Positions 21,484-59,302 of a DNA stretch of 64,000 bases are shown here, piece after piece; position 1 is the first letter of the stretch, and every line of letters starts with the position of its first letter. The DNA comes from Tausonia pullulans. Lineage: Eukaryota; Basidiomycota; Tremellomycetes; Cystofilobasidiales; Mrakiaceae. Below the pieces are notes generated by a model. That model worked only from the letters and a program-made list of their open reading frames with translations. It ran no database searches and was not told where the DNA came from. The position numbers were made by a program, and so were the translations under genes. The stretch is from assembly GCA_951802195.1 (NCBI GenBank), contig OX637630.1:682001-746000 (forward strand), read 5' to 3'.

Positions 21484-21556
21484 AGCTCCCTAGCCGAATC
21501 GAACGACTGACCTCATCATTACTAGTGACGTGTTATAGCCACTAAACCAAGGGAGC
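21484..21556 (-). tRNA. tRNA-Thr (anticodon AGT), intronless
   Basis: Read on the minus strand: 7-bp acceptor stem GCTCCCT/AGGGAGC, D arm GTTTAGTGGCTATAAC, anticodon stem CGTCA/TGATG with loop CTAGTAA giving anticodon AGT, five-base variable loop, and T arm AGTCG-TTCGATT-CGGCT. All stems pair (one G-T in the anticodon stem, one in the T stem). The discriminator is T at 21484. A TTTT Pol III terminator follows within about 12 bases. A repeat element begins about 75 bp upstream of the 5' end. Confidence 0.93.
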
Positions 21557-21630
21557 GATACATGCCTTCTCACATTATTCATATACATAGTCAGCTAGAA
21601 ACTGCCTCCGCCCCCGCTCCCCCCTTCCTA

Positions 21631-21861
21631 CCACCATCCCCGGTGGTTCGACCAACCCCCCCCCCCCCCCCTCTCACGGCGCCCATCACGCCGTCCGGCC
21701 AACCATCCCCAGTGGTTCGGCCAACCCTCTTCCCACGGCGCCTCGCCCGACGTTCTCGCGCTTGGTCATGTCCGCTCTCCCTCTATCCAGCTACAACTCG
21801 CTATCTCTCATAGGGTTACCTCGTTCTCCACGTATAACTCATGACTTAAATACAAAAAAAA
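21631..21861 (+). mobile_element. Oligo(A)-tailed repeat copy A1, 75 bp 5' of tRNA-Thr
   Basis: Starts with CCACCATCCCCGGTGGTTCG, then a C15 run, CTCACGGCGCCCATCACGCC, a second GTGGTTCGGCCAACC block, and a unique 3' part ending TAACTCATGACTTAAATACA with an A8 tail at about 21854-21861. It is about 231 bp with one GC-rich monomer. From the monomer to the tail it is almost identical to copy B1 at 58.7-59.1 kb (two substitutions seen in about 140 bp), so the copies are recent. The oligo(A) end and lack of terminal repeats fit a non-LTR retroposon. No ORF, so it is either a 5'-truncated piece or a SINE-like non-autonomous unit. No clear target-site duplication was found. Confidence 0.7.
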
Positions 21862-22041
21862 CTTCCTCTTCCTTGCTGTACCCTTTCACCTCGTACATCT
21901 TCTCCCTCCCCATCTATACACTCGCCTCCCATCCCTCCCTAGGTAGAATCTCTCTCCTCTTCCTCCCTCTCACTGTCTCTCATAGGTCATAGAGCCGGTC
22001 ATACTGTCATATAAGCTTGATCCATGACTTCAATTCAAAAA
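21862..22041 (+). mobile_element. Diverged second repeat tail (A2)
   Basis: Immediately distal to A1, a CT-rich stretch leads to TCTCTCATAGG, then CCATGACTTCAATTCAAAAA. This repeats the order of landmarks in A1 (TCTCTCATAGGG ... CATGACTTAAATACAAAAA) with clear divergence. It is read as an older 3' end of the same or a related family, placed in the same orientation. The 5' limit is uncertain. Confidence 0.4.
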
Positions 22042-22710
22042 GAGGATGCTCCGCTCCACCACAAAGACGTTAAAAAAATGCCAGTCGGCTCGATAGATAA
22101 CCCAGGTCGGAAGGGACACATCGAATCTGCTCTGCAGCGGAGGCGATGTATACGAAATCGTCAAGTCGAGGGCCTGAAAGTTGACTTTGACGTCTGCCTG
22201 CCGATCCCCGAAATGCCACCTGTAGACCCGGCGCATGCTAGCAGCAGCTCCGCAGTTCTGGGTTTCGAGCACCGACATTCTGCTAGCCAAAGATATCGTC
22301 ACTAGGTATTTATATTGAACTCTCCTGGCCATGCGACCATACACCAGCAAGCGACGCGTGCTGCCTAGCCTGACGGCGAGAAGACGAGATTGGAACCTGA
22401 ATGCCCGAAAGGCTGCACATCATCCATGATCTCTTCACTTTGTTCTGTGACTCGTCCCTCGTTAGCCGTCAAGACTCATGTATATTTTCGTCTTTTTCAT
22501 CTGACTCTGAACATTGCGAGTCGACAATCAGTGGTGGCGGCCCGGCGTCGACGACACAACGCACGCAGGATGCCTTAGACTGTGCTTCGCTTCAAAGTTT
22601 AAGTACAAGTGTGCACCACACCGCTCGACTTCAGGCTCCGATCCATCTAAATACTGGACCAGTCGAGAGTGTTCTAAGGCTACAGAAGTACAGACACACA
22701 CCAACACGAA
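22042..22710. other. Intergenic region between repeat A2 and the Mpv17-family gene
   Basis: About 670 bp 3' of the Mpv17-family gene, less GC-rich than its surroundings. Short open frames exist on both strands but none has recognisable motifs or splice support. It could be decayed repeat sequence or 3' UTR. Confidence 0.35.
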
Positions 22711-23795
22711 TCACATCCCTTCCCGTGGGGAGGATATGGCCAAGGAAGCCGTCGTCCGTGAGGGCAGTAGACTCGGTGGAGGGCTGGCAGCCTTCGATTC
22801 GTGAGTTTGATGAGCGTGCTCCTCCTCCATCTCGCTAACGGTATCGTTGGCGAAGTGGTTCGCGGCAGAGAGGTAGGTGTTCCATCCTGGAGATAGACAG
22901 AAGTGATTAGAGAAGGGAGCCCTGTAGCACCCTCATTACGCTCACGACTCACCGAGACCGACGGCCTGAAGGAAGAGACCCCTGTGCGGCAGAGGGATGA
23001 CGCTATAGACGAGAGCGCTCGTCGGGATAAAGACGGCTGCACCGCGGAAGTATGTTGGCCAGAAGGCGACCTCGACCTTCTCGCGAGCTTCGTGAAGTGA
23101 GTGGCCTGGAGGTACAGGTGGTCAGTAGAATGCGTCGTGCGAGCGAGGGGCGTGAACTGGTAGGGAGAGGACTCACCCTCCATGAGGGACATGACCGAGT
23201 AGAACATGCCGACAGAGAAAGGACCCCAGAGCGTCTGGTCAAGAGCCACCTGCGAGAGCAACGAGTGGAATCAGCCCCCCTACTTGTGCCAACCTGTAAC
23301 GGTGTCGTCGACAGACGCGACGGACCTTTGCGACGAGGCTCTTGGTTGCTGCTCCCCGGAGCTGGAGTCTGTCGACGATCTTGAACCATTGCGCCAGCAC
23401 GGGCGCGTGGAAGAAAAAACCGTACGCAGCAAATCGAGCTGAGCGAGCGATCTAAAGATGGGGAAAGGTCAGTCAGCCGGTGGAGGGACAGAGGAGGAAG
23501 GGCCAACGGGCTCAGACGACTAATCGTCAAGCAGCCGTGAAGTAGAGACTCACATCGTGCCGCTCGTTGCGCTCAAAGACCCGCTGAGCGATGACATCAC
23601 CAGAGGACATCATCCCCGCCGCCACGCAAGAGCGTGTGAGGTCTGCCGTCAAGGCAGTGAGCCAGCGTCAGCAAGGAGAAAGGTCACACGAGACGAGACA
23701 GGCCCGCCGCCGCTGTTTCCGCTGTCGCCAGAGAGCAAAGGAGGCGGCTTACAAGGATGCGACGCGAGAACACGGTTGTAGGCCTTCCATGGCAT
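22711..23795 (-). CDS. Mpv17/PMP22-family membrane protein
   Basis: Small four-helix membrane protein of the family that includes mitochondrial Sym1/Mpv17 and peroxisomal PMP22. The start at 23795 gives MPWKAYNRVLASHP, the usual W..Y...L..HP opening. After an intron the next exon reads LTRSCVAAGMMSSGDVIAQR, the conserved T....G.L...GD...Q motif. Further exons give ARSARFAAYGFFFHAPVLAQ, WFKIVDRL, then LDQTLWGPFSVGMFYSVMSL, EAREKVEVAFWPTYFRGAAV and the last helix with the family W.....FLP..V Pro/Trp pattern altered to SALVYSVIPLPHRGLFLQAV. The stop is at 22711. It could sit in mitochondria or peroxisomes; no clear presequence is seen. Its promoter region lies next to the UPS2 3' end. Confidence 0.82.
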
Positions 23796-24366
23796 TCTAA
23801 GGTCTGGCGGAGAGCGACCGGCGAGACAGTGAGGGCATGCGAGGGTGTGGTGAGAGTTGAAGTTAGGACCCGGAGAACAGGGAAGTCGAGGTGACTCGAG
23901 TCTCGATTTTGAGAAACGGACCGAGCGCAAGCTTTCGTGTTCATTCTCCGATGTCGTCGATCCTTTCTCTCCCATACTTCAGCGGGCGGGCTTGCGGCCG
24001 ACAAGAACGAACTGCGAGTCGTGAACAATGGGCGGACACAAAGGTCGTGGATCATGATGGGCGTGAGGGAGAATAAAAGAATGACGACGACGAGCTCTAA
24101 GGAGGGGTAAAGGGCCGGGGAGGCTGCCGTGCGGTCGAGAGCGAAACAACGAAGGAGGAGTGGGCGAGAAGAAGGACGACAAGACGGGGAGAGGACGAGA
24201 GTTAAGCGAGAAGGTTGGAGAGGCAGGGGAGTAGCAACATCTCCCCGCCATTTTTATGCAAAGCAGAAGCAAACAGGACAAGGAACAAGAGCGCTGTGCT
24301 AGTGGGGCACACCTCTGAACAAGAGACCAGGAAAGAGACGAAAAAGACAGAGGAACAGACCGACGG
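23796..24366. promoter_or_regulatory. Upstream region of the Mpv17-family gene
   Basis: About 570 bp between the Mpv17-family start and the UPS2 stop, both minus strand. It is purine-rich on the plus strand near 24100-24220, meaning CT-rich on the coding strand. No specific site is recognised. Confidence 0.4.
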
Positions 24367-25532
24367 CTACGCAACGGTCACTTCCCGGCGGGCTCCGACA
24401 TCACGTTGGCTGTCCTCGCCAAAGAGCCGGTGGAGGACTTGCTCAAAGCCCTCCTTGCCCTTGGCGGCATTCCGCTGGAACGTCTCGAGGCTCAGGTTCT
24501 CCAGCTTGTCCTTGACGCTCTTCCAGAGGGCGCCCCGGGCGGTGATCTCAGCCTTTTGTGTGAAGAGCGTCTCACGATGGGCGGCCGATGCCGAAGGGTT
24601 GTAGGCGATGGACTCCATGACGGTGAGGTACTCTGGAGACGGGCAGAAAAGGGTGAGGTGACAAGGGTAGAGCAGGTAAGCGAGCAACTCGAGAGCGACT
24701 GTAAGCCCAGAGCAGAAGGGATGCGTACGAGAGAGGGAGAGGTTGATAGAGTACATCCGGAGTGATCGGCTGATCGGGTCGACGAAGGATACCTCTCGGA
24801 CATAAGCCTGCTCCTGACCACCGAGCATCTATGAAGGAGCGAGAGGGGCGTCGTCAGTAACAGGTCCTCGGCTGAGGTCAACGGCAGGAGAGACCGAGAT
24901 CGGCCGGCGCGAGCGAGGATAAAGTCGTCATACCTTGATCGCCCATGCCTGAGGAGGAGATAAGAGACCAGGACAGCATTCAGCTTTTAGCTATCTCTAT
25001 TCCTTGCAAGAGCCGTTCTTTGACCCACAGGTGCGCTCTGCTTGCTGCCAATGACTCGCTCGCTGATGGGAGAAGATGCGCACGCACACGATCAGCGGCC
25101 GGACCCTCGGCCCGCCACCAATATGTCCTCAACTCACGTCCTGATGACGCCTGTGGAGGGATCCACTGTCCGCGAAATCGTGTCGACGCTCGTGACGTGG
25201 GCGGTTGACGGGTTGGGGTACTTCTGCCAGATACCCACGGTGACTCTGGACCACTCGTGGCTGGGGGAGGTGGAAGGAATAGAGGATGCGCGAGAGAGCA
25301 AGGCAGGGAGTCGTGCGAGGGCGGCGGCAGCGGATCGAAGGCAACAAGGTTGCCGAGCAGGACCGGGAGACAACCGTATCAGGACAGCGAGGGGAGGAGA
25401 GATGGATAGGACCTGGCGTCAGCCGGAATGTCGACCCGAGGATGTCCGGAGAGGAAAGAAGACGCAAGCGGGCTGCAGGAGAGCAAGCGGGACACACGGG
25501 AAGGTGAACGCCTGCGAAAAGAACTGGACCAT
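24367..25532 (-). CDS. UPS2: PRELI/MSF1-domain lipid-transfer protein, Ups2-like
   Basis: PRELI-domain proteins shuttle phospholipids across the mitochondrial intermembrane space with Mdm35; Ups2 (PRELID3) handles phosphatidylserine. The start at 25532 gives MVQFFSQAFTF, and the spliced continuation is PHEWSRVTVGIWQKYPNPST, AHVTSVDTISRTVDPSTGVI, RT, ERVIGSKQSAP, AWAIK, MLGGQEQAYVREVSFVDPIS. The KQ.AP.W..KMLGG and YVREVS..D blocks match Ups2 better than Ups1. The C-terminal exon contains EYLTVMESIAYNPSASAAHR, TLFTQKAEITARGALWKSVK and RNAAKGKEGFEQVLHRLFG, ending REVTVA at 24367. At least five exons. No presequence, as usual for the family. The substrate is inferred from homology. Confidence 0.8.
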
Positions 25533-26647
25533 GGTGGGAGTGTTTTTATGCTTGGGCGTGTGCGAGGGCGTAAGAGAGAAAGAAGAGGGAGGGGAAAGGG
25601 AGGAGGGGAGGAGGGAAGGGCGGAAAGAGAGAGAGGATGGATGCGGTTGGTCGGGAACCGACGGGTGGCGAGAAGAAGGAAGGTCAGAGCGACTGAGTGG
25701 AAAGTGCGGCCGAAAGAGGGAGCCAGGCATCAAGCTTCTGTTTTTTCTTTCTCTTCTCCCATCGACCATCATCATCCCGCCCAGATTCGATCTGACGTCG
25801 ACGTTCTATCCACCTGACATCTTCTAACTTTGATCAGACCCCGCTCAGGGAGTCCTTTGACCCAGAGGGAGTGCCCTCGTCCGTCGATGGAGGTTGTCCT
25901 TCCGAGTCCACTGCTTGCATGCCTTTCTCCAGTCTCTCAACTCCCCGCATGGCCTTGCCAATCAGCCCTGCATTGAGCGTGAGGCTGGCTCTGCGAGGAG
26001 GGGTATTCCGCACGCATGGCGCAAGCTCTTCTCCCGCCAGGTCATTCCCAGTACGCGCGCGCTCCGAGCTCAGGATGGACTGCCTTTGCGTTGAAACAGC
26101 CAACAGCGGGCCAGTGCCCAGGCAGACAGAGCCTAACAGAAAGCCCTTATGCCACTCAGGCCTTGCCCCAGGTGTCTAGTCCGTCGATGCCCTTCTGTCT
26201 GTGTACGCTTTCCTTTTCTCATCTTCGCTCTCAATACTTTTCCCTCCCACATTACCTTTGCATTATCCCCTTCACAAAACGGCTTGTCCGCGGCTACACT
26301 ACCGCGCGAGACGTCCAAAATGGCGGAGAGAGACTGCTTCTGAGGCGCCGATCCATATCCCTTGCTCTTTTAGTCTTTGACCCGCGTCTCTCCTTTCAAG
26401 AACGGGGGGCAATTGGGCCGGCCGACATCTTTATCACCTTCTCTAGCATTTGCTCTTCTATGCTTATGCTTCATATCATCGCCGTTTTGCAGTTTCCCGC
26501 AAGACAACGCGAGTCGCTCAAATGCATGCAGCGAGGCTTGCTCTCCTGGATCACCTGTACAGACATCGATTGAGATCCAAGTTACTTTGGTTGCCCGAAT
26601 ACGCAAAAGGAAATAGAAAGCCCGCATGTCGCCCATGGTTCACCTCC
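25533..26647. other. Intergenic, UPS2 upstream region
   Basis: About 1.1 kb between the UPS2 start and the glycerate-kinase stop. The first 250 bp are CT-rich on the UPS2 strand (promoter). A minus-strand frame at 25834-26103 is listed separately. The rest shows only short frames without motifs. Confidence 0.4.
25834..26103 (-). CDS. Possible small hypothetical protein (89 aa)
   Basis: Open from MAVSTQRQSILSSERARTGN through RRASLTLNAGLIGKAMRGVE and RLEKGMQAVDSEGQPPSTDE to a stop at 25834. The middle could form an amphipathic helix. No family is recognised and no clear upstream exon was found. It may be a real short gene, a terminal exon, or chance in GC-rich DNA; only transcript data would decide. 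Confidence 0.22.
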   Translation of the reverse strand: MAVSTQRQSILSSERARTGNDLAGEELAPCVRNTPPRRASLTLNAGLIGKAMRGVERLEKGMQAVDSEGQPPSTDEGTPSGSKDSLSGV

Positions 26648-27894
26648 TCAGAACTTCCCGGTGCCAAGGACCTCCCGCGACTCGCCAAGGTTGATCGACA
26701 TGCCTTGCCCAGCCCAGCATTGCGTAGGCGACCGGACGCCTTCGAGGAAGAGCTCATACGCCGGCATGTAGCGGTCGACAAAGGCGATGATCTCGGCGTC
26801 GGACATGCAGGGCTTGCCCGTCCGGGCGCGGACTGGGCGATGAGATGGAAGAGTCGAGTGATCTGGTGAGAGGGAAGACATAGGAGCAGTGAAAGATTGA
26901 AAGCACGTACGATCTTGCTCCTGTTGGGTGCGCCACTTGTAGATGGTCTCGAGCGAGGGAGGCGAGATCTGTTGAATACGACGTGCGGTCAGGATCAACA
27001 AGAGATCACGACGCTCCCTCGCTCGCAACCGCTGAGCTCACTTGGATGAAGGCCTTAAAGTGCTTGTTCCAAATGTCGTACGCCCGGAGGTTCTCATTGA
27101 TCTCGAGGAGACTCTCGAGCTCATGAGCGAGGAAACTCGGCCCTTTCTCCTCGCCCTTCATGCCGTCGTCGAGGCCAGCCTGCTCCGGGTCCTCCTCGCT
27201 ATCGTTTTCCCCAAGCTTGGCCGACCGGACGCTTTCCTCTGCACGAGCGATCGCGTACTTACGGATGAGGGCGTCCTTGGAGATGGGGAGGAAACCCAAA
27301 GACCAACCCTCGAGGAGGACGACGTCGACGGGTCCTTCGACGGGGATCGTCGATTCACTCCGGTCGCCGAGCCCACCGTGGGCGGACTTGTCGAAGATCG
27401 GAAGATGGACAGTCGTTCCCTCTGTAGCGGACTCGAGCGACGTGAGAATTTGCTCGCCGAGAGCGATATCGTGCGTCCCTGGGAGGCCGCGACCTTGAAG
27501 CATCTTATTCGATGGGGCAGCGGCTGCGACGGCGAGGAGGCCGGAACGAGGGAGGTAGAGGTCATCTGTCGAGAGAAGGGCAACTCGGAGGGCGTGGGCG
27601 GGCGAGGTGAGGATGTTCACTAGCGCTGTGGTAAGGTACGTCTTGAGTGGCGAGTCACACCAGACAGGACAGAAACTGAAAGTGTCAGTCAGGGCGACGC
27701 GTCGTTTGGGCCAGACGAGACGCGTATCGTTGACCGACCTTGCCGGAACCCTGAGGCCCTTGGACGCCAATGAAGAGGGGTGGAGGAGGCGAGTTTGGGA
27801 AGCCGGCCTTGTGCTCGGCATGGATACCGAGGACATGGGATGCCATCAGAACAGCGGCCGGGGGAGATGCATTCGGAGGAAGCTGGGCGGTCAT
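26648..27894 (-). CDS. D-glycerate 3-kinase-like P-loop kinase (Tda10 family)
   Basis: Fungal Tda10 and plant glycerate 3-kinase share this P-loop fold; the likely reaction is ATP-dependent phosphorylation of D-glycerate. Exon 1 from ATG 27894 reads MTAQLPPNASPPAAVLMASH ... PPPPLFIGVQGPQGSGK. The next exon starts at 27641 with TYLTTALVNIL, so the Walker A motif GPQGSGKT is completed across the intron. Then STDDLYLPRSGL, the GRGLPGTHDIALGEQIL motif, LPIFDKSAHGGLGDRS and DVVLLEGWSLGFLPI, all typical of the family. The last part has LRAYDIWNKHFKAFIQ, ETIYKWRTQQE, MSDAEIIAFVDRYMPAYELF and INLGESREV. The stop is at 26648. It diverges from the ZNF511-like gene 250 bp away. Confidence 0.83.
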
Positions 27895-28144
27895 GACCGA
27901 AGAGAAGCGGCGAGCAACGGAGGAGAGGAGGTTCGGTCGACGGCGGAGGAGGAGCGACAACACGAGAGGAGGAGAAGGAGAAGAAGGCTTGTCCTGCTGA
28001 TGCGATGGTTGGACGGATATGGTGAAAGTAGGACCGATTCCACCGAAAGGAGGCGTCTTGTTGCCATTTATCGGCCTGTCTACTCCGATCCACTGTTCGT
28101 GCTTGACCCTGTTCTCCCAAGGACCACCATTGCGCCTCTCGACC

Positions 28145-29240
28145 ATGCTAAACAAACGACACCGGTCTCTGAGTGTCTCATCGTCATCCTCCATTGGCTC
28201 CTCCTCTTCCTCGACCGGCAGCGCTGCACCTAAAAAAGCAGCCAAGCAGCCCACCCTCCCCCCGTCTGTCGCGTCCGTCGCGTTCACCTGCTCACTCCCG
28301 CCGACCTGCTCGCGCTCGCCCATCGCATTCGCGTCCTCGGCTGAGCTATCGGCCCACTATGCCCGGCTGCATGCACTCAGGTGCGATGCTGATCTGCCTA
28401 CCACCGGGGACGCGGCGCGCGGGAAGGCGAGGCAGTGTGGTAAGCTGTTCCCGGAGCCGAGGCTGCTTGAGCTTGTAAGTATCCTCTCTATCTCTCTTTC
28501 TTGCACAGATTGACTGAACCCATGCGCGGACGGGATCACAGCACCAGAACGAGTTCCACAATCCTTTGCTCGCCATAGCCAGCGAAAGAGGGGAGCGCAT
28601 CGTGAGCCTGACTGACCCACCGGCTCACGAGCCTGACAGACATCCCCGCTCAGCTATGTCACTTCGCCTTGCTCCCAGTACGAATGCTACCTCCCTCCCT
28701 CGCTCTGTGACCGCAAGTTCAGCACCCCCAAGAAGCGGCGCCTCCACCTGATCGCAAAGCATGCGTACCCCGCCGAGTACTTCTTTGCGATCGTCAAGGA
28801 AGGGGTCCGTCTCCATTGTTTCGCCTCCTCCCATTCCCTCCTATGTCTGAGCTGACAGGCAATCCTTCCCTCCACAGATTGGCGGTCTAGTGAAGGAGCA
28901 AGGCCAGGGAGCTTCGCTACTTCGACCGGTCCATGTTCCACGTCCTTCGACAGCAGCTCCAGCAACAACAGCAACAATAGCAGCAGGAATGGAAACGACT
29001 TCTTTAGATACAACGCAGGAAGACGTCTCTCCTCTACACTTCACCTCTCCGACGGCGACGATGACAGCAGCGCGGGCTCATGCTGGCGGCGATGACGACC
29101 GGACAAGGCTGACACCGCCGATGCCCGACGATGACGACGACGATCCGATGGACGGACTGGTGAGCTCGATGCGGAGCGCGAGTCTAGCATTTGTGCCGAG
29201 GACCGTCGGAAGAAGGACGAAGGCGGTTGGAACAGGATAG
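28145..29240 (+). CDS. C2H2 zinc-finger protein, ZNF511-like
   Basis: Exons 28145-28474, 28542-28601, 28679-28804 and 28878-29240 keep frame (292 aa). A Ser-rich N-terminus is followed by three finger-like units: FTCSLPPTCSRSPIAFASSA with AELSAHYARLHALRC; CGKLFPEPRLLEL joined to HQNEFHNPLLAIASERGERI; and YECYLPPSLCDRKFSTPKKR with RLHLIAKHAYPAEYFFAIVK. The order of fingers and the H..YP..Y.F ending match the animal and fungal ZNF511 family, whose biochemical role is poorly known. The tail contains an Asp run (PMPDDDDDDPMDG) and a basic end (FVPRTVGRRTKAVGTG). Start 28145 is the first Met in the frame and lies 250 bp from the divergent kinase gene. Confidence 0.78.
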
Positions 29241-30703
29241 GGGAAGTGGCCCGGTGAAAGAGGATCGAATGTAGCCGGCTGGGTGATCAAGAGCGCGCAC
29301 GACACTCCCTTATTGCTGAGAGACGGGAGCAGAAGATCAGGAGTAATGTAAGTCGCGTGGATGGTGTTGCGGATACTGCTGTTGCAGTGGGGGTGGAAAA
29401 GTGTGCCGTATATGCCAGCAGGCAGCTGATAAAGAATGGGAAAGAGAGAGGGCATGCATGAATTCCAGGAAGGACGAGCGATGTAGATAGCTCGGGGGCT
29501 GAGTGTCGTCGACGCAGATGATCCTCGCCCTTCAACGCCCGCGATGTGCGCATGCGAGCTCGGGATTTCATGCCTACCGTCATCCTGTAGATGAGATCAA
29601 GAAAGAGTAGTAAATGCGAGTAAGAACACCAGATGGTCCAAGTGGCCGTGCGAATGGGACAGAGCCTCTCAATGACACGTTGTGACGTCGGAACGTTGAT
29701 CATCCGGACAACGAGGGACCGACGGACCGCTTCTTTCTACCCGGTCCGTTCTTCCTCCATGGCTTGAGATGCGGATATACTTGATCCGTCTCCGTTTCTT
29801 GAGATGGTGGCAGAGCGAGGGAGACCAAAAAGAGCAAAGAAGAATAAAGTCTTCAAACACGGAAAGAGAGAGCCGCTTTTCGTCATAAGACCGACGACAC
29901 ATGCACGAAGGGAAGCGCGCGCCAATCCCGCGTTGAAGCGCCAAATTACGACCGGGATGGCGATGACTCGCGCGTTCGTCTCATGGCCCGGAGCTCCCTG
30001 CCCTGGTCTTTAAGCAGGTGATAGAATACGGAGTCCCCGTGGGCTTCGCTCCCTTCCGTCTCCGCTTTTATTCTTCGCCCGACAAAGGGCGGACGTCAGA
30101 GCCGATCTGAAGGAGGTCGACCGAAAGGGCCTTGCGGTGTCAGGCACACGATAAGAGAAGCCGATTGCCGTCGCTAGAGGCAAGTGGAATAGAGGGGGAA
30201 CAACGGGGGAAGGAGAGTGATGAGGGAAATTTGAGAGGAGGACTCAGACAGATGGGAGGAGAGGGCGCGGTTGCCGTTTGCGAGAGCCGCGGGCGCTATT
30301 TGCTGTGATATTGCTGTGATGCCACCTCAGGGCCGATGAGCCATTCGCCGTCTCCTCTCGTCCTCCGCGTATCGTTTGTCTCCCTGCTCTTGCCTTTTCT
30401 TCGGATTGCGGGGAGCGCTGAATGATCTCTGTGTCCCTGCCTGCCCATTCTCTCTCGAAATGGAAGAAGACGGGGGAATGAGGGACGAGAGAGGAAGGGA
30501 GAGGGCGAGACGACGACGACTCCCCCCCGACAAGCTCCGATCCGACGAAAGCCGCATTCGTCGCCTCCCCGTTTCGTCTCCTCGTCTTCATAAGGAGAGC
30601 AGCAGTCGTCTCCCCCTCCTTCCTCCCAACTACATCTCCCTCTTTCCCTCCCTCTTCTCGCCTCTCATCCTCCCACACCGTCCTCCACCCATTCCCCCCC
30701 ATC
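29241..30703. promoter_or_regulatory. PCK1 upstream region, 1.46 kb
   Basis: A long spacer between two plus-strand genes, much larger than most here, which fits a carbon-source-regulated promoter. The last 150 bp before the PCK1 start are CT-rich. A long minus-strand frame at 30244-30915 overlaps PCK1 exons 1 and 2 and is treated as chance. I could not assign individual binding sites. Confidence 0.4.
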
Positions 30704-49700: not shown

Positions 49701-49852
49701 CGTACCAGCGTGTTCTCAGGGAATAGAAGAAAGGGCTCACCCGACGATGATTACTCACAGGCTTCGACGGTGTGTCCGAGGAGTGGGAGATGACGCTCCA
49801 TGAGCAGATGGTTGGAGAGCCGGGGGAGGTCGTCGAAGGTTTTGGTTGGTAG
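46708..49852 (+). CDS. PEX5: Peroxisomal targeting signal 1 receptor Pex5
   Basis: Pex5 binds C-terminal SKL-type signals with its TPR domain and carries cargo to the peroxisome membrane. Nine exons keep frame: 46708-46800, 46879-46917, 46989-47262, 47330-47443, 47514-49159, 49225-49340, 49407-49440, 49511-49697, 49761-49852 (864 aa). The N-terminus [20 protein letters not shown] is that of Pex5, though the usual early Cys of the ubiquitination site is not evident in this stretch. Tryptophan motifs for Pex14 docking include WVASY, WAQSF, WASEF and WEAQF. The TPR part reads [80 protein letters not shown] and [20 protein letters not shown], then [20 protein letters not shown]. The join NLR-RYEEA requires a GC-AG intron (49441-49510). 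It is longer than typical Pex5 because of Gln/Ser-rich linkers. Confidence 0.92.
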
Positions 49853-50095
49853 TTAAGTTGAAATTGCATGACATGCCATTCGTCAGTTATACAGAACCAC
49901 ATAATGAAGGAGACGGGCCCGCCTTGCCTCCTCACACCAGCACGGCGACGCACGCACGTGGGAGCGAGAATACGAGGCGGCTGCGTTGTTTTCGGCCAGC
50001 GCCGTCCACGGCCCCGACTCCAGCTTCCTTACCTGGAACCTTCGGTATTTCTCCCCTTCCGACGACGACGAACACTTCTCCTCCTTCTTCCCTCC

Positions 50096-52786
50096 ATGCC
50101 GGCCCTGCGATCCCTCTATCCTCTGCTCTTCTACTCCCTCCTGACAAGTGCCTCAGCCACATCCCGAAATGAGTCCCTCCACAGCCACGCACATCACCCC
50201 GTCGAGCCCCACGTTCCGACGCATGATCCTCACTTTGGTCAGCCCAGACAGACAGGTCGACTTCTGGACAGGCTGGCTGATCCCCCCTTCCACACCAGTG
50301 TTCTACCTTTTTGTCATTTTTGGCCTCGTCTGCCTAGTGCGTCTCGACCGAGCTTCTTCGTCCGTTCCCCACGAGTGGTCCGCTTCCCTTCCTCGCCCGT
50401 GGTCTGCCCCCTGTCTTGCCGTCCCGCCTTTCCACCCCATGCTGGTTATTTTAGCCGGCCTCACGTGCCTCGCCAGAGTTGAGCTATTGTGCATCGCGTA
50501 CGAGGCGGAGAACCTATTGCGTCAACTCTACCCTTTCCCCGCTTCTCCAGGCAGTCAGACACCTCACCAGCAAGCTGATTTCTTTCCCTCCTCCTCGACC
50601 CTCTTCTCGACCAGGCGGGTATCTTTGCGGGCCTCACGCTGGGTCTTCTGAGCCTAGACCAGACGCGTCTCCTCGTGCTTAGCGAAACAGGCGCGGACGA
50701 GCGCGAGAAGGAGCAGGCGAGCAAGGTCCTCGACCTCTTTGGACGGTGCGGAAGGCATTTGATTCTTGTCGCTCTCCTCGTGAGTTATTTCTCTCTTATT
50801 CTTCGCTCGGGGCGGTATGCGTGCATACACGAGGCGGGTTGAAGAGGGAGGTGGGAGGGGGCGTTGGGGGGGGGGGGGGGGGGTTCGTAACGGCTTTCGC
50901 TAGTCGGAGAGACAGGTCGCTCGTATGCGCGCTGATCCCCCTCATTTCTCCCATTTCGTATTTCGCAGCTGGCCAACACCTTCGTCAACACATCTCTGCC
51001 CATCTTCCTTGATTCCATCGTTGGTGGCGGCTGGCTGGCGATCCTGATCTCGACAGCGCTCATCGTCGTACGTCCTAGTGTTTGCCTACGGGTGCACCAG
51101 TTTCCATCTCTCTGATTTTCGCCTCTCCTTCTCACGAGCACAGATTTTTGGTGAGATCCTTCCCCAAGCCCTGTGCTCTCGATGGGGACTCCCCATCGGC
51201 GCCTTCAGCGCGCCCTTCGTCCGGGCGCTCCTGCTGCTTCTCTACCCACTCGCCAAGCCTATCGCTTCCCTCCTCGACTGGCTACTTGGCCACTCGGAGA
51301 ACTCGCCGTACTCTAAGCCCCAGCTCAAACGATTCCTCTCATGTGGAGTCAACCGGGAGGGCGCTCAGGCTGGTACGTTCCTTGATGTAGGCTGGCGGCG
51401 GTCAGGTGTGCTTGGACTGATCATTTCCGCTCCGCTCCCTCGCTCGCAGAGGTAGCCATCATCGAGAGTGTGCTGGATCTCGGGGATAAGACGGTCGAGA
51501 GCATTATGGTGGGTGTTTCCTTTCTGTCCTGGAGTGCCTGTACTGAACCCCCCGCGGTCCGGCAGACTCGACTCGAGGACGTATTCAGCCTTCCCGCCGA
51601 CCGCATCATGGATGAGGGTCTCGTACAAGAGGTGCGCGCTTCTTAGTCTTCTTCTGTCCACTCCCATCACTGACATCCGCTCCTGCTGTCGCAGATCATG
51701 GCGAGCGGCTACTCGCGGGTGCCGATCCACGAACCTGGCACACCGCGTGTCTTCAGAGGACTGCTCCTTGTCAAGCGCCTCTTAGCTTATGACCCAGGTA
51801 CGCTCGCCCTCCCTTCGGGGTTTTCATAGGGAAAACCTAACGCTTCCTTGTATTACCCCTCAAAAAGATGACCGCAAGACGGCAGGCTCCCTCGTAATTG
51901 CCTACCTGCCGGAATGTGACCCCTCACTTTCCTGTCTCGAGGCTCTCAGCTAGTAAGAGCCGTCCCTCATCGCGAAACGCCATGTTTTCTGACTCTGGAC
52001 AATCGTGCAGCTTCCAATCCGGCCGGAGTCATATGCTGCTTGTCTCTAAGCATCCGGGTAAGGCGGGTTCAGGGATTGGAGTGGTGACGCTTGAGGTACG
52101 TTCCCTCTCCACTCCCCGTCAAGCTGCGAGTGAGGCTGACACTTCTGATAACTATTTTAGGATGTGATTGAAGAGAGTGAGTTTTCAGCCACGATGTCTG
52201 TCGCGATGAAGAGCAGCGGATACAGATGTCTCATTTCTGTTTTTCGTTCTTCCAGTGCTCGGCGCCGAGTACGACCATTTACCTCCATCCGACCATTTTT
52301 ACCCAATCTGACTCGTCATTTTCCAGAATCATCGACGAAACCGACGTTTACGTCGACTCCTCCTCCAAAATTCGGGTCGTTCGCCCAGCGGCGGCCACGC
52401 AAGACCGCTATCGACCACTGACATCCTCTCGGCTTGAGGAAGGGTCTGGCGTCGGCAGCCTCTCGAAGGTCTTTGAGGGCATCGTCCGCGCGAAGGTTCG
52501 TCATTTTTCTCGTTTTTAACTTCTTCGCGGTGTCTGACTATTTCATTCTCTGCAATCGATCCAGGAGGCCTCGACAGCTCGACAGTCCAACGGTGTCATC
52601 CTCCCGCTGCCATCTGCCTCAGCGTCCCTCCTCAGTCTCGCCGCAGACATCGGTCCTAGACCTGCGACGCCACTTGCCACGACGGAATCCAGCAGCCACC
52701 ATGGGAAGACGAACGGGGCGAGGACGGCGGCGGAGGGGCGGCTGGTCGACCTGGGAGAAGAGGAGGGGTTACATAGCGAGGCGTGA
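50096..52786 (+). CDS. MAM3: CNNM/Mam3-type DUF21-CBS membrane protein
   Basis: Family members (yeast Mam3, vertebrate CNNM) sit in vacuolar or plasma membranes and affect metal-ion homeostasis. The DUF21 domain is clear: [12 protein letters not shown] joined to [77 protein letters not shown] and [20 protein letters not shown]. The CBS pair follows: [78 protein letters not shown] and TLEDVIEEVLGAEI. The tail is Ser/Ala-rich and ends GLHSEA. About ten exons. The start is uncertain: 50096 gives a signal-peptide-like [16 protein letters not shown] and needs a 39-nt intron to stay in frame; 50169 ([16 protein letters not shown]) needs none. A G-run of about 15 lies in one intron (50868-50883). 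Confidence 0.83.
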
Positions 52787-53199
52787 GGAAGGCTGACTTG
52801 CTTGCGCTCAATTATTTATGATGCACTCATACTTGCTTGCTTGAACGTCATTCACACAACTTCAAGTTCTTTTCTTCTTCTCGGCGCGAAGAGAGGCGCG
52901 GTTGAAGGCGGTCGTTCTGGTTAAGATAATGAGGCACGTTGGCGGCGGCGTGGAATGACCTGCCATACCTGGTTTGGTCACACAACATACTGCTGGAGTT
53001 CGAGCGTCAACCAGAGCAAGACAGGAAGGCTAGGAGAGATCCCCACTTGTCGGTCTTGCTGTGCGAATGATCGAGCACACCTGCTGTGCCTGATAGCTGA
53101 AAGCCATGTTGGACCATTCTGGTCCCGACTGAGGAGAACCCAATATCGGTTGGAGAACTCTCCCTTCCCTCCTCACCCCCAGTACTCACCTCGACCTCC
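52787..53199. other. Convergent 3' region MAM3 / HNH gene
   Basis: About 410 bp between two stop codons, moderately AT-rich near 52800-52880. No gene is recognised. Confidence 0.45.
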
Positions 53200-53922
53200 T
53201 CATCGCCTCATCTTGAGCCCCCTCACGCGGCCTTCAAACCCGCAGACGCGTTGCTTTCCAGCGTAACCAACCCACTTCTGCACGGCCTCACTCTCCCTCA
53301 ATCTTTCCATAGTGAACCACTCGTCCGCTAACTCCCGATTTGAGAAGATTCTGTGCACTGCCGAGTGGCACGGCCGACAGATGTAGGCCCGGTGCGTAAC
53401 GATGAGGGCGTGACGCGTAAAGTCGTCCGGTCGGCGTTTGAGGAGATGGGTGTGCTCGGAGCGCGGGAAGAGGTGGTGGATTGTGAGAGGAATGCCTTCT
53501 CGCTCGCAGAGCTCGCATTCGGATGGGAGTCTAGTCGGGGGGATGTCGGCAGAGGAGGAGGAGGATGGAGGAGGAACGGCAACGTAGGTCTCGAGAAGGG
53601 ATGAGACAACGCTCTCGAGTTCGTGCGTGTCACTGATGGCACACAGGTCCGTCAGGTGGTCGGCGAGCGTCGCGTAGAGCGGGTGGGAGGTAATCTCGGC
53701 TAGATCTGGGAGGTCGATTGAGTCGTCCTGGTCGCCGTGCTCCCCCTCGTCGTCGCCAATGACGGCGGAGAGCGCCGGGATGGCGAAAAGGCCGGCGTGG
53801 TCGATCTCGGTGAGGAGAAAGTCGAGGACGTCCGGGTCGGTCTCGCGGGAGAGGTTGAGACGGAGGGAGAAGGCCCATCGTTCGGACGCATCCGCACGAG
53901 AGAGCGTTGAAGGTATCAGCAT
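53200..53922 (-). CDS. HNH-like zinc nuclease-fold protein
   Basis: Single-exon frame of 240 aa. Residues 1-125 are helical and acidic (MLIPSTLSRADASERWAFSL; AVIGDDEGEHGDQDDSIDLP; HELESVVSSLLETYVAVPPP) and match nothing I know. The C-terminal 110 residues hold an HNH/beta-beta-alpha-metal pattern: CELCEREGIPLTIHHLFPRS with a C-x2-C pair and the catalytic-like HH, then HALIVTHRAYICRPCHSAVH with the second C-x2-C and the closing His. The end reads ADEWFTMERLRESEAVQKWV. Similar HNH proteins of unknown role occur in fungi and bacteria. Whether it cuts DNA cannot be said. The start at 53922 is the first Met; a Met further in is possible. It diverges from the F-box gene. Confidence 0.72.
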   Translation of the reverse strand: MLIPSTLSRADASERWAFSLRLNLSRETDPDVLDFLLTEIDHAGLFAIPALSAVIGDDEGEHGDQDDSIDLPDLAEITSHPLYATLADHLTDLCAISDTHELESVVSSLLETYVAVPPPSSSSSADIPPTRLPSECELCEREGIPLTIHHLFPRSEHTHLLKRRPDDFTRHALIVTHRAYICRPCHSAVHRIFSNRELADEWFTMERLRESEAVQKWVGYAGKQRVCGFEGRVRGLKMRR

Positions 53923-54236
53923 AGAGAAACGAGAAAGGATGGTGGAGGTTGAAAATGAACATCATTCGGCCAAGCCCGTCTTGCCCTTGTCTCACTGGGC
54001 CATGCGCCTCCGCCATCTCACTTATCACTCATGGCAGGCTCAAATGTCTCCAGACTGGCCAGCTTGAGAGATGATGAACACCAATCCAGTGGGCTGAGGT
54101 CGTTGGACTAGACCAGCCTCTGCGCCGATGTTTCAGCGAGCCAAAGCGACCCGCCTCTTTCGCTCCTTCGCTGCCCTTCCTGTCCCCCCTTGTTTCCCCT
54201 CTGACGGCCATTCAGCTAGCACGCCAAGAGCCAGCC
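53923..54236. promoter_or_regulatory. Divergent promoter HNH gene / F-box gene
   Basis: About 310 bp between two starts. CT-rich on the plus strand close to the F-box start. No named site is recognised. Confidence 0.4.
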
Positions 54237-57200
54237 ATGGATCTCTCGAGGCTCCCTCCCTTGGTCCTCCAAGGTGTCTCCTACCTCATCTCAACGGTCA
54301 TCCCCATTGTCTCGTCGCTGGACTGACGTCGACCATCTACCCCGCCCCTTTCCGCTGCCAGACATCGTACGCATGATTCTCCTCGTTCCGCCGCCATCCT
54401 CCACCCCCTCCTCCTCTTCCTCCTCCTCGGGACCCTCTCTCACCCTCCCACTCCTCTCCGAGCTCGGTCTGCACCTCCGCCAGGCCGCCCAGGCCGTCCT
54501 CTACCGGGACCTCGTCGTCTGCCTGCCCGTCGCCGGCCTCGGCGCCGGCCGGCCAAGAGACAACGATCCCTCCACATCAGCGGTTCGTCGCGCCGAGGGC
54601 GAGACAGGGGAGGAGTGGCGGGAGAGACAGCGATGGCAGGCAGTCCTTCGGTAGGTCTCGCTTGCTCCCTTTGTCAGATGTATCTGGAGGATCGCTCTCC
54701 ATCCCCTTCTATGCGCGTGTCAACCTGACCTGTCGATAATCCCACGCCTCCTCCTTGGCCCTGCCCCTTCACATTCCCTTTCATCCTCCTCAGGGATCCC
54801 GATCGCTACGCGCCTTTCGTCCGTTCCATCTCCGTCGTCTCGCCCGCTAGGAGCCATCCAGCCCTCGAGGCCGTGCCCGTCAATCGCGGCGAGATCGAAT
54901 GCTTCATCCCACTCCTCAATTACTGCGCGCAGACCCTTGAGCGTCTCGACTGGCGCGGCCTCGGAGTCTGGGGTGACGGCGTCAGCAAGGTTGATACGCT
55001 GCGACTGCCGGTTGTCATCTTCGCTTCAGCATTCGCTGATCTGAGTGGGAACGAACACAGCGACTCCTCCACTTCCCGTCTCTGCGCCATCTTTCCCTCG
55101 GGCCGCCTCCGCTCCACCCGTCGTCGCTCACCACCCAGAAATCGGCCTCGGCCCTCCCCCGACTCCAGCTCCTCTACCCGCTCCCTGGCTACCTTCGCAC
55201 GTTGCGCCTTTCAAGGCTCAGCGCCGTCGGAGTAAGTCTTCGTAGCCAGATCATTTCATCCCCTTTGAATCATAGCTGACCCGTTGAAACAACAGACCAA
55301 GAATCTCTGCCTCCACCTCTCAACCCTCCCCGCCCTTGCCGAGCTGGACGTTCTTGGCATCGAGAGCTCAATGCTCGATGACTCACTCGCAGACGTCATC
55401 TGCGCGGCCGGCCGGGGCGTCAAGGACCTTTGGCTTCGGAGCAGCGGCACCAAGCTCACGGACAAGGGAATGTGCGTGTTCCGCGTTTGTCATCCCTCAA
55501 ATGAGTCAAAAGCGCCTACATATTTGTAATGGGTCTCCGCAGTCAGCGCTTGCTCGAGGGCTGTATTGAGCTTGAGTCCCTCACGCTCTCCGAGATTCAA
55601 GGTGAACATCGGCGATAATATTCCTTCTTTCATCCTCTGATGATCGTTTATCCCAGGCCGCCTCTCAAAGAAGCTTTGGAGCAGGGTCGAGACGTGGCCA
55701 GACACGCTCCGGTCCCTCCGAATCGAGATCAGCGAGGTGGGACCGCACCATTCGTGAGTCCGTCTGCACTGCACTAAACAACACGGCGGCATCAGTCTGA
55801 AGACCATTCCCTGCAGATGGTCGACCGAGCACCTCGCCTCCATCGCCTCCATCCCTCTGGCCAGCCTGGTCACGCTCGCCGTCACACGCATCTCGCCACC
55901 GTACGCCCTCTTCCCGGTGCCTCCACGAGGACATGCCCCGCTTGTGGACGATATCTGTGTGCCCCAACCGATGCCAAAGGAGCTCGTTGAGCTTCTCGTG
56001 GCCGAGGGAGCCGGTCTGAAGTCCCTCGCGCTCGACTGGTGGAAGGTCTCGGAGAAGGATCTCACCAAGATCGTCAAGAGTTGCTCGGCGCTTGAGGAGC
56101 TTAAGGTCCTGGTCGATATGCCCTTCTCCAAGCTCGTGAGTTCAAGAGCAGAGAGGCGAGAGACACACAAGACTGATGATCTCGATCGATTAACAGCTCT
56201 CCTTTACTACGGCATTCTCGAACTTGACTCGCCTTAAGAAGCTCCACGTCCTCATTCCTGCGTGCCACGTCCCGCTTCCGACAGCCGCCAGCCCTGTCGT
56301 TCCGCCCTTGACGCCCTCGACGTCGCCGACACTATCGCGGACGATGGATCTCTTCATTTCCCAGGGCGCTCCCAACCCCTCACCCTCCCCATCGCTCATA
56401 GACCTCCTCCCCGAGAGTACTCGCCTTCACCAGCAGGACGCGCCGATCGAAATCCACCCGCTCCTCCTCGCCAAGGCCTGTGACCCGACTCTGCCGCTGA
56501 TTCGAGACGTCCGCAAGTTCGTTCGCCGGGTCCCATCGCTCGTTGAGCTCGGATGGACCGGCCGCACGGGTATCGGCCTCTGGCGGATTTCGCGTGAGGG
56601 CACCCCGGCGGACTCTGGCACTGGCTCGGCGACAGCGGCGACGGCGGCTCTCTCGACGTCGCCATCGGCTACCCCCTCAGTCACACGAGGAGGGTACGCC
56701 CGGCGGACAAGCGTCGCTGCTAGCGGCGGGGGCAGCAGCGCCGCCGCTGAGAAGAAGGGCGTCGAGGGCATCGAGTTTGTCAGTTTTGCAACGATGTGGG
56801 CTGACGAATGGGAGGAGGCCTCGCGTGGGGAGCCGACGTGGACGTTTGAGTTTCCGGAGGTCGACGAGAGGGACGACCAGCAGGACACTGCCTCCAGCGA
56901 TGTCGTTCACTCTCGATACAGCGGCAATCCGAACAAGAGCAGGAACGTCCTACCGCCGACTTCTTCCCCCGTTGCGCCGAATCGCGAGCAGGCATCGACC
57001 GTCGGCAGCGAGAAGGCCAAGGAAAGGAGGCGCCAGGCGTCGACCTCTTCCACCACGTCCGCTACCAATGCCATCGGCGCGCTCAGCATCTTGCAATGCC
57101 CCTCTGCCTCGTCCACTAATTCCTCTTCTTCTGTACCAATTTCTCAATTTTCCGCTTCGCCGCCGCCCAAGGACGTGAATTTTGGGCTCGGCCTCGACTT

Positions 57201-57678
57201 TGGGCCTGGTCAGGAACCCCCGGCTATCCACCAGACCACCCCTCCCCGGCGGCGCGTCTCCACGTCCACTACTTCCTCAACGCTCTCCCCCTCAGTCGCT
57301 GCCGCATCCTCCTGGTCATCATCCTCCCGTTCCTCGCCACCTTCGACCCCAGTTTCCACCACCACCGCTGCTCCTCTTCCTCCTCGCGTCCAGGCGCAGA
57401 AGCCCGCATCGGTTGTTTCCTACCGAGATCGCGCGGCCGCAGCTGCCGCCCTCCCTTCTCCCGTGCCAGAGTCCGCACCTTCTCCCGCGACGGGTTTGAC
57501 GGCGAAGAAGACCCACCAGCAGGGGGGAAGCGGGTCGACGAAGAGTGGTGGAAGTGGTAGCTCCAAGCAACAGCAGGGCGCGTCGCGCAAGATCATCACG
57601 GCCGATGGGTGGAAGCAGGTGGGTGGTGGTGGTAGCGTGGTTCTAGGAGAGGGAAAGAAGAAGAAGAAGAAGAAGTAA
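54237..57678 (+). CDS. F-box / leucine-rich-repeat-like protein
   Basis: Probably a substrate adaptor of an SCF ubiquitin ligase. Exon 1 (54237-54273) and exon 2 (54362-54650) join as MDLSRLPPLVLQDIVRMILL, an F-box-like LPP.VL..I start. Exon 3 (from 54794) reads DPDRYAPFVRSISVVSPARS and LLNYCAQTLERLDWRG. Further exons form irregular leucine-rich repeats: LLHFPSLRHLSLGPPPLHPS, YLRTLRLSRLSAVG, LCLHLSTLPALAELDVLGIE, GVKDLWLRSSGTKLTDKGM, LEGCIELESLTLSEIQG, LVTLAVTRISPPYALFP, GLKSLALDWWKVSEKDLTKI, VKSCSALEELKVLVDMPFSK and LTRLKKLHVLIPACHVPLP. The C-terminal third is a long Ser/Thr/Pro/Gly-rich segment. It ends in KIITADGWKQVGGGG and a run of seven or eight lysines directly before the stop at 57678. 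The substrate is unknown. Confidence 0.75.
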
Positions 57679-58530
57679 TGTGGACGCCCAGGGCTCTCAT
57701 GTTTTTTGGTCTCATCCTCACTCCCAGTCTTGATCTGCCCTCGATCACATGATACGTCTGTTTGTCTCTTATGATGGCGACCTCTGACTCTCGTGCGCTG
57801 CTGCCAAATGGATGATCCAGCCAGCGTCTGTAGGGCCTCCTGCTCTGGGCGCAAATCTGTCAAGGAGAGAGAGAATTCGACCACCGCAGCGACTTAAAAA
57901 AAGAGTACGGTTCGCATTCGGTTAAGATGCGGGTCCCAGGCCAATCACGACAGTAGGGGTGTCTTCTGAACATGGATCCGAAAGGTACTCGCCTGGAGAG
58001 AGATGCTAAAGACTTCAGGCCATCCGAACGAATGGAAAGAACCCGAGCAGACAGGTGCGTGCCCTTCGAGAGACCGTTGAACAACGGCGACGTAATCAGC
58101 CTACTCATCGCCTTGCCCGCCTCCCAAACCACTATCCACATTCAGCCCAGCGTGTCGACCTTCCCACCACCTCGTGTCCGCCGGCCGATGCTTGCGCCGG
58201 ATGGTGGATGCAACCGTTTGTATCTCGTCGTCCGTGACATCAACGAGGTCCTTGAGTATGCTGTACCGTCGGTTGCGGAGAAAGCGCCAGACCCTGGCGA
58301 GGAAGGGGCAATGGAAGGAAGAGCGTGCCGCGGGTGCGGATGTTGGGACAGACGAGTGTCTGAAGCGAAGGGGATTGAGGGGAGCGGGAGAAGCGGTGGG
58401 GAGAGACGAGCGCTGCGGCAGCGGTCCAGACAGCGCGCACCATAGGACAGGGCTCGTCGAAAGGATGGAAGAAGGACTCAACCGAGGCAGCCAGATGGAA
58501 CACGCCACGCGAGTTCTTGTGTCCCGTGCG
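57679..58530. other. Intergenic, between F-box gene and repeat cluster B
   Basis: About 850 bp. The first 150 bp are the F-box gene 3' UTR region. Minus-strand frames at 57860-58141 and 58101-58500 contain segments such as RRYSILKDLVDVTDDEIQTV that look protein-like, but I could not connect them by credible splice sites or name a family. A small gene or decayed gene is possible. Confidence 0.3.
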
Positions 58531-58631
58531 TTTTTTTGTATTTTTTTTGTATTTAAGTCATGAGTTATACGTAGAGAACGAGGTAACCCTATGAGAGATA
58601 TCGAGTAGTAGCCAGATAGAGGGAGAGCGAA
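58531..58631 (-). mobile_element. Oligo(A)-tailed repeat copy B2, 5'-truncated
   Basis: On the minus strand it begins abruptly at CGCTCTCCCTCTATC, follows B1 with about four substitutions in 90 bases, and ends CATGACTTAAATAC with A8, then TAC and A7. The copy lacks all GC-rich monomers, so it is 5'-truncated. Truncation at the 5' end with an intact oligo(A) 3' end is the usual result of target-primed reverse transcription. Its tail is doubled (TAC plus A-run twice). Confidence 0.65.
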
Positions 58632-58712
58632 AGTAAATAACAGGTAGAAGGAAAGCAATATATGGGTGTGGACATAGGCCCATTAAAGAGGTAAGATATT
58701 AAGATGACCAGC

Positions 58713-59146
58713 TTTTTTTTGTATTTAAGTCATGAGTTATACGTGGAGAACGAGGTAACCCTATGAGAGATAGCGAGTTGTAGCTAGATAGAGGGAGAGC
58801 GGACATGACCGAGCGCGAGAACGTCGGGCGAGGCGCCGTGGGAAGAGGGTTGGCCGAACCACTGGGGATGGTTGGCCGGACGGCGTGATGGGCGCCGTGA
58901 GAGGGGGGTTGGTCGAACCACCGGGATGGTGGTTGGCCGGAAGAGGGTTGGTCGAACCACTGGGGATGGTTGGCCGGACGGCGTGATGGGCGCCGTGAGA
59001 GGGGGGGGGGGGGTTGGTCGAACCACCGGGATGGTGGTTGGCCGGAAGGGGGTTGGTCGAACCACTGGGGATGGTTGGCCGGACGGCGTGATGGGCGCCG
59101 TGAGAGGGGGGGGGGGGGGGTTGGTCGAACCACCGGGATGGTGGTT
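58713..59146 (-). mobile_element. Oligo(A)-tailed repeat copy B1, 84 bp 5' of tRNA-Phe
   Basis: Read on the minus strand, it starts CCACCATCCCGGTGGTTCG about 84 bp upstream of tRNA-Phe, has three GC-rich tandem monomers, then the same unique 3' part as A1 and an A8 tail (T run 58713-58720 on plus). Total about 434 bp. Orientation relative to the tRNA is the same as at tRNA-Thr: monomers face the tRNA and the tail points away. No ORF and no terminal repeats are seen. Near-identity with A1 implies recent spread. Confidence 0.7.
58845..59146. repeat. Tandem GC-rich monomers (three units of about 98-105 bp)
   Basis: The landmark ACTGGGGATGGTTGGCCGGA recurs at 58861, 58959 and 59064 on the plus strand, giving spacings of 98 and 105 bp. 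Each unit holds GGCGTGATGGGCGCCGTGAG, a G run of 6, 13 or 15 bases, a GGTCGAACCACC block and the CCACC/GGTGG inverted repeat. The spacing difference equals the change in G-run length. Copy A1 has only one such unit. Confidence 0.88.
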
Positions 59147-59229
59147 GCTACCCACGGTGGTTGTTTTGCGGACAGACTTCTGGATCGTGACTGGTCTCTT
59201 GGCTCAAAGATGTATTCATCAATACAAAA

Positions 59230-59302
59230 GCCTCGATAGCTCATCTGGTAGAGCGTACGCCTGAAGAGCGTAAGGTGGCCTGTTCGAGCCAGGCTCGAGG
59301 CA
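59230..59302 (+). tRNA. tRNA-Phe (anticodon GAA), intronless
   Basis: Acceptor stem GCCTCGA/TCGAGGC, D arm GCTCATCTGGTAGAGC, anticodon stem TACGC/GCGTA with loop CTGAAGA giving anticodon GAA, variable loop AGGTG, T arm GCCTG-TTCGAGC-CAGGC, discriminator A at 59302. All stems pair fully. A T5 terminator follows at 59304-59308. Confidence 0.95.

Follow-up and report, generated by a model that had tools for sequence, protein, structure and literature searches.

Two short repeats in a 64,000-nucleotide stretch of the Tausonia pullulans genome (contig OX637630.1, positions 682,001 to 746,000; hereafter the window), referred to as A1 and B1, are in all probability non-autonomous retroposons that were mobilised by a long interspersed nuclear element (LINE) and placed, through target-primed reverse transcription, about 80 bp 5' of tRNA genes, at sites set by distance and not by sequence. 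This is the targeting habit of the TRE5 retrotransposons known from dictyostelids, found here in a fungal LINE with a different spacing.

Copy A1 occupies positions 21630-21861 (+ strand) of the window and consists, by sequence reading and alignment, of one GC-rich monomer of ~105 bp, a 3' end and a terminal run of eight A (21854-21861). Its target gene, tRNA-Thr(AGT), is located at 21484-21556 on the - strand (ARAGORN), and the spacer between the tRNA 5' end and A1 (21557-21629) measures 73 bp. The last six bases of this spacer (CTTCCT, 21624-21629) recur directly behind the tail (21862-21867), so that A1 is enclosed by a 6-bp direct repeat, the two halves of a target-site duplication (TSD). 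Copy B1, delimited by alignment at 58713-59146 (- strand), carries three such monomers, a LINE-like 3' end (58713-58808) and likewise terminates with eight A (58713-58720); a spacer of 83 bp (59147-59229) separates it from the 5' end of tRNA-Phe(GAA) (59230-59302, + strand; ARAGORN, Rfam tRNA 61.7 bits), and its possible flanking duplication is only 2-3 bp long. The two copies are 99% identical across 196 nt of pairwise alignment, and in both the monomer side faces the tRNA gene, the A tail points away from it and the tRNA gene is divergent. The original prediction had located both repeats and both tRNA genes to within two bases and had recognised their common geometry and close likeness; its upstream placement of the repeats was also right, while its distances of ~75 and 84 bp have to be replaced by 73 and 83 bp.

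The short element starts with AACCACCATCCCGGTGG, continues with one to several GC-rich monomers and ends in a LINE-like segment of ~96 bp. In A1 this segment (21766-21861, + strand; BLAST) agrees with the LINE 3' end at 86/96 bases (90%), tail included. Beyond these ~96 nt, the short element and the LINE have no more than ~8 nt in common, located at the 5' end. The monomers form predicted hairpins (folding z of -5.25 for B1, 100 shuffles); they found no match in the first 4.4 kb of one LINE copy, nor in a second LINE copy. An internally deleted LINE (SIDE) was rejected as the source of the monomers, which are unmatched in the two LINE copies compared. A head of the RNA polymerase III (Pol III) type (tRNA, 5S or 7SL) gave no Rfam match at the gathering score in A1 or B1, and GGTTCGACC within the short element resembles part of the B box consensus. 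Being non-coding and sharing its 3' end with the LINE, the short element is predicted to be a non-autonomous passenger of the latter, similar to short interspersed nuclear elements (SINEs).

A full-length copy of the LINE was found at C1:502666-508495 (fetched stretches L064 and L037; ~5.8 kb by position). It begins with AACCACCACCAGGTCAATCC, and its leader comprises ~35 nt. The first open reading frame (ORF1) specifies 625 amino acids (aa) with CCHC motifs, according to our own reading of the translation, and adjoins ORF2 through a TAATG stop-start overlap. For ORF1 no Pfam match was obtained at E up to 5, and its PDB matches are weak (E 0.067 and 0.82, the second being a Gag polyprotein). 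ORF2, read entire in L061, has 1231 aa and matches reverse transcriptases (Pfam RVT_1, E 2.7e-25) and, N-terminal to that domain, endonucleases (Exo_endo_phos, E 2.3e-4). Its best PDB match is human L1 ORF2p (E 4e-44), and human L1 endonuclease chains match it at E 0.002-0.006. No RNase H domain was matched by Pfam in ORF2, and no long terminal repeats (LTRs) were seen on the LINE. With a reverse transcriptase, an apurinic/apyrimidinic-type endonuclease (APE) domain, an A tail, 5' truncation and TSDs, the LINE is assigned by its sequence to the APE-type non-LTR retrotransposons. It also looks active: the best 38 of 386 candidate ORF2 copies in the genome are all full-length (38/38), 96-100% identical and, in 35/38 cases, stop-free, and 53 of the 143 RVT_1 matches in the genome belong to the LINE and lie in an open frame of 1231-1233 aa with no stop (hand count).

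The element family is large and includes young copies. Across the genome searched (23,855,473 bases, 21 contigs), the 22-base 3' end has 399 matches at two mismatches or fewer, 100 of them itemised, against 0 for the reversed-pattern control, a number beyond chance. For the 120-bp 3' part, at least 49 matches were obtained, of which 43 span its full length at 98-100% (best 40 of 434 candidates scored), and 44 LINE 5' ends were counted (control 0).

Association with tRNA genes was assessed on the fetched stretches and not on a complete genome census. Merged with the window, these stretches form 54 blocks (295,825 bp), in which same-strand copies were grouped by hand into 50 clusters; tRNA genes were called by ARAGORN with its intron option, since without it the program misses intron-bearing tRNAs. 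A divergent tRNA gene lies 5' of 46/50 clusters, mostly within the block or array of the cluster itself. Two of the 46 are reached through independently listed tRNAs (C2:164354, 3.6 kb off with LINE reverse transcriptase sequence between, and C5:642696), the array at C5:1294083 reaches its tRNA through stretch L095, and several tRNAs predicted behind arrays turned up once that DNA was fetched. Among 59 tRNA calls, 42 have an element upstream and divergent within 130 bp, at 37-123 bp (median 80, standard deviation (SD) 15), as measured to the nearest BLAST-detected element edge with a possible error of a few bases. These 42 genes represent 16 isotypes. A further 7/59 stand behind another tRNA of their group, with gaps of 376-894 bp.

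The same relation was recovered from the LINE side and, in part, from the tRNA side. The forward test covered the 29 previously unseen of the 44 LINE 5' ends, with 828-1160 bp fetched on the 5' side of each: a divergent tRNA was called by intron-aware ARAGORN at 26/29, in 22 cases directly at the LINE end and in 4 with a short element between, and the distance from the tRNA to the nearest element edge was 65-110 bp. Rfam at low threshold, run on 20 of the 29 stretches, confirmed the tRNA in 14, the remainder being either intron-bearing tRNAs called by ARAGORN alone or the misses. The three misses (L087, L090, L102) come from stretches that end within or beside element sequence and therefore neither support nor refute the association. 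As for the other 15 LINE 5' ends, 9 lie in merged blocks, 4 inside arrays and 2 near separately listed tRNAs; those at C2:1550679 and C3:405806 are 70 and 101 bp from tRNAs, respectively. In the reverse test, 63 top-scoring tRNA genes (best 63 of 897 candidates) were chosen regardless of repeats; the test used the 29 situated on C1-C5, for which perfect tails seem to be listed in full. An upstream-divergent perfect tail was present within 7 kb of 15/29 and within 500 bp of 8, compared with means of 1.1 (maximum 9) and 0.1 (maximum 3), respectively, in 1000 trials with rotated tails. The other arrangements in this 7-kb range were upstream on the same strand (6), downstream with a divergent element (5) and downstream on the same strand (2).

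Several observations weigh against targeting of tRNA 5' flanks by an APE-type LINE. The stretches were mostly picked by clean 3' ends, and 14/29 tRNAs of the reverse test lack a perfect tail up to 7 kb away; many tRNA genes are therefore free of perfect copies or have older ones only. Four of the 50 clusters (C1:751378, C1:1969397, C9:26188 and C9:29537) have no called tRNA. Intron-excision rescue on their flanks gave no call, with one chance call in six control stretches, and a low-threshold Rfam search yielded no additional tRNA at C1:751378, where a B-box-like sequence is situated ~120 bp away, or on C9; C1:1969397 (L044) was searched by Rfam at the gathering score only. Among the 59 tRNA calls, three have upstream gaps of 261, 565 and 565 bp, the latter two from one inverted duplication, two are preceded by an element on their own strand, at 313 and 588 bp, and five have no upstream element in the stretch examined. 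On the downstream side, an element comes within 150 bp of a tRNA in a single case, an array 138 bp from a C5 tRNA-Gly, and this array begins 78 bp from another tRNA-Gly. Finally, the APE domain of ORF2 falls under the Pfam cut-off (21.4 vs 24.5 bits).

Pol III genes of other types gave no sign of targeting in the sample at hand. Neither the ~3.1 kb surrounding one 5S gene (best 47 of 1476 candidates scored) nor that surrounding each of three U6 matches (best 47 of 1020 candidates scored), one of which is below the Rfam cut-off, contained an element, a sample too small to exclude 5S or U6 targeting; the only matches to the element near these genes are 17-19 bp C runs. The proposal of a tailed, LTR-less family directed to the 5' flanks of tRNA genes is borne out, with copies ~80 bp away in one orientation at 16 isotypes, and finds no counterpart at the one 5S gene and three U6 matches examined. 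It also has to be amended as to the agent: the non-LTR family is indeed present at tRNA 5' flanks, while the window repeat is not itself the retroelement but a SINE-like passenger without machinery, the proteins belonging to the separate LINE.

Junctions of the copies bear signatures of insertion. At 38 of 42 junctions (for the other four, the stretch contains no tail up to 2.5 kb away), TSD-like matches between the 5' flank and the sequence behind the tail average 4.58 nt, compared with 2.15 nt after shuffling (shuffled maximum 3.13), and 13 of them reach at least 6 nt, compared with 1.3 (maximum 6); a few of these matches are inflated by contact with adjacent elements. Where at least two tails lie in 3 kb (18 clusters), the copy closest to the tRNA shows fewer changes in a 50-nt 3' motif in 11 cases, equally many in 6 and more in 1 (means of 0.11 and 4.2). 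The short TSDs and the position of the cleanest copy therefore indicate repeated insertion at one spot. The flank of B1 is organised alike: outward of B1, its tail is adjoined by B2 (58531-58711, - strand), a 5'-truncated LINE 3' end with an A tail (alignment, 87% over 175 columns), followed by B3 (58400-58494, - strand), a diverged relic of the LINE ORF2 region (81% identity in BLAST of the window against a LINE copy), and both diverge more from the references than B1 does. Moreover, at C2:1533721 and C4:493563 sequence reading identified copies embedded in LINE pieces older than themselves. From this layering and these interrupted pieces it follows that the distance to the tRNA gene sets the site and that older copies are pushed outward.

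Arrays of this kind might also arise if the first copy alone targeted the tRNA gene and later ones entered earlier A tails. Many copies do abut an older A tail or start a few bases after one, and Zorro3 of Candida targets poly(A) (available portion of PMC7175516). Yet in 11 clusters the tRNA-proximal copy is the cleaner one, against a single cluster in which it is dirtier, older LINE sequence near the tRNA is broken by copies at the two loci just named, and the nearest element remains ~80 bp off in multi-copy clusters, which makes growth through A tails improbable. Far less credible still is that the repeats were carried along in duplications of tRNA genes with their flanks. Local duplication does occur: two C4 tRNA-Ser(cga) sites have the same 565-bp gap, Val-Glu-Leu tRNA groups are present twice on C6, and six ORF2 copies in a tandem array at C2:364-400 kb are 100% identical to the query. 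However, only 1/861 spacer pairs is alike at E 1e-3, and TSD-like repeats are locus-specific. With 16 isotypes and unrelated spacers, one ancient duplication, the explanation that the original prediction had set against its own, therefore does not account for the copies, and joint duplication of tRNA genes and flanks was largely rejected on the unrelated spacers. Just as implausible is loose insertion into open or AT-rich DNA near genes with selection sparing the copies beside tRNA genes, since, although the spacers are AT-richer (GC 0.43 vs 0.55-0.66 in 2-kb bins of the window), selection alone predicts neither one orientation nor an SD of 15 bp and leaves the 26/29 of the forward test unexplained.

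For the preferred reading, LINE-driven insertion at a fixed distance, we propose the following course. The LINE of the same genome would supply the endonuclease and reverse transcriptase, which the short element could borrow through its LINE-like 3' end. LINE proteins may recognise the Pol III complex, TFIIIB or TFIIIC, with the nick falling just outside its footprint; at 80 bp, the nick would be just past the footprint of TFIIIB. Target-primed reverse transcription, established for this element class and indicated here by the APE-reverse transcriptase protein, A tail, 5' truncation and TSDs, would then insert the element ~80 bp upstream of the mature tRNA 5' end in divergent orientation, and each fresh insertion would land near the tRNA and displace earlier copies outward. 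We infer guidance by the Pol III complex because insertion disregards both isotype and spacer sequence, and because TRE5-A sets a precedent.

The comparisons with known systems given here hold for the available portions of the cited papers. TRE5 elements of Dictyostelium insert 40-54 bp upstream of tRNA genes and also hit 5S genes (PMC5911963, PMC5006619); ORF1 of TRE5-A interacts with TFIIIB, and the B box is required (PMC5911963). Like TRE5, the fungal LINE has two ORFs, APE and reverse transcriptase in ORF2, an A tail and a position upstream of the tRNA gene in opposite orientation, and neither it nor its SINE-like partner displays an apparent isotype preference. It differs from TRE5 in spacing (37-123 bp, median 80, and 65-110 bp in the forward test), in its leader of ~35 nt instead of the A-, B- and C-modules of TRE5-A, in the lack of an element at the single 5S gene found here, and in the presence of the passenger. 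NLTR-B of Polysphondylium (39-64 bp) and NLTR-A of D. purpureum (2-6 bp) are also non-LTR elements located upstream of tRNA genes, but are reported with an RNase H domain, for which the fungal ORF2 has no Pfam match, and their spacing is different (PMC5911963). Ty1, Ty3 and other fungal LTR elements likewise target the tRNA 5' side; in contrast to the APE-reverse transcriptase protein, A tail and 5' truncation of the fungal LINE, these elements rely on an integrase and LTRs (PMC5911963). In turn, Zorro3 of Candida albicans is, like our element, a fungal L1-type LINE whose two ORFs are preceded by a very short 5' untranslated region, yet poly(A) sequences are its target (PMC7175516), and Candida LINEs show poly(A) or subtelomeric insertion habits. 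The NeSL and LIN families are likewise non-LTR elements tied to tRNA-Pro, tRNA-Arg or tRNA-Glu genes, but they belong to the restriction-like-endonuclease lineage and each keeps to a single isotype, whereas the fungal LINE is of APE type and meets many (PMC4640811). Persaeus-type internally deleted elements are, similarly, short passengers sharing termini with a partner LINE; here only the ~8 nt and ~96 nt ends are common, and the monomers are unmatched in two LINE copies (PMC6740152).

Nearest to ORF2 are an unnamed protein, at 30% over 90%, and one from Microbotryomycetes sp. NB124-2, at 34% over 42%. ORF2 groups with these two (support 100), apart from coral, plant, Chlorella and Tx1-named mushroom proteins, in a quick tree with long branches, in which the Microbotryomycetes row is flagged as a long branch and no TRE sequences are included; two Tx1-named mushroom proteins are among the ORF2 matches, but fall into another group of this tree. 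The fungal LINE is likely independent of TRE. As to the host, two proteins encoded in the window have named relatives at no more than 45% identity, most of them in basidiomycetes, next to ~99% matches in further assemblies; this speaks for a fungus, probably a basidiomycete, and does not establish the red yeast of the original prediction. In a review table, the fungal members among Pol III-targeting elements are integrase-bearing LTR elements, and dictyostelids supply the non-LTR members (PMC5911963). No fungal non-LTR element targeting tRNA flanks was found in the portions seen of open PMC papers, the search leaving aside subscription papers, preprints and Repbase. Rather unlikely, though worth stating, is that TRE5-like targeting arose independently in fungi and that the LINE, almost leaderless with its ~35 nt, depends on the tRNA gene as a promoter as well as a safe landing site, a site and a dependence that its SINE-like partner would share; lying ~80 bp upstream and divergent, the LINE might draw its transcription from the open region next to that gene. 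A fungal LINE with open copies, a passenger and clean layering offers a second system for studying how target-primed retrotransposons find tRNA genes and lets one ask if contact between ORF1 and TFIIIB is a repeated solution, and its arrays preserve the insertion order at each tRNA gene.

Some loci deserve separate mention. Downstream of A1, window positions 21955-22048 show partial likeness to the 3' end (TCTCTCATAGG... CATGACTT.AATTCAAAAAG); this stretch, not picked up by BLAST at E 0.01, is perhaps a decayed older copy of the element. In L013 (1604-1665) and in the spacer of L010, LINE 3'-end pieces of ~17-20 bp, e.g., GACTTAAATACAAAAAAA, lie between TSD-like repeats and are possibly extreme 5'-truncated insertions. 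The region C2:364000-400600 (L053-L061) is a head-to-tail array of ~6.1-6.3 kb units, each composed of a LINE and short elements, which is followed by tRNA-Ile at C2:401189 and looks like a recent tandem amplification; its LINE is devoid of the first 148 residues of ORF1 and starts with 14 bases resembling the short element. The two tRNA-Ser(cga) sites at C4:629068-641809 (L023, L024) are inverted, with the same gap and elements, and represent an inverted duplication. The Val-Glu-Leu groups at C6:672946-673848 (L016) and C6:884688-885577 (L010) are in opposite orientation and differ in the place and 5' flank of the short element, which makes them a possible natural empty-site comparison. A match to fungal U3 small nucleolar RNA (40.6 bits, E 3e-7, gathering score 95) was detected close to tRNA-Phe in L082 (549-791, - strand). 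Lastly, ~46 other RVT_1 matches constitute a separate group in which a shorter stretch aligns to the profile (e.g., C6:997438-997920 and C1:4415-4897); they have open frames of up to ~1459 aa, several are close to contig ends or paired in opposite orientation, and they are probably LTR elements.

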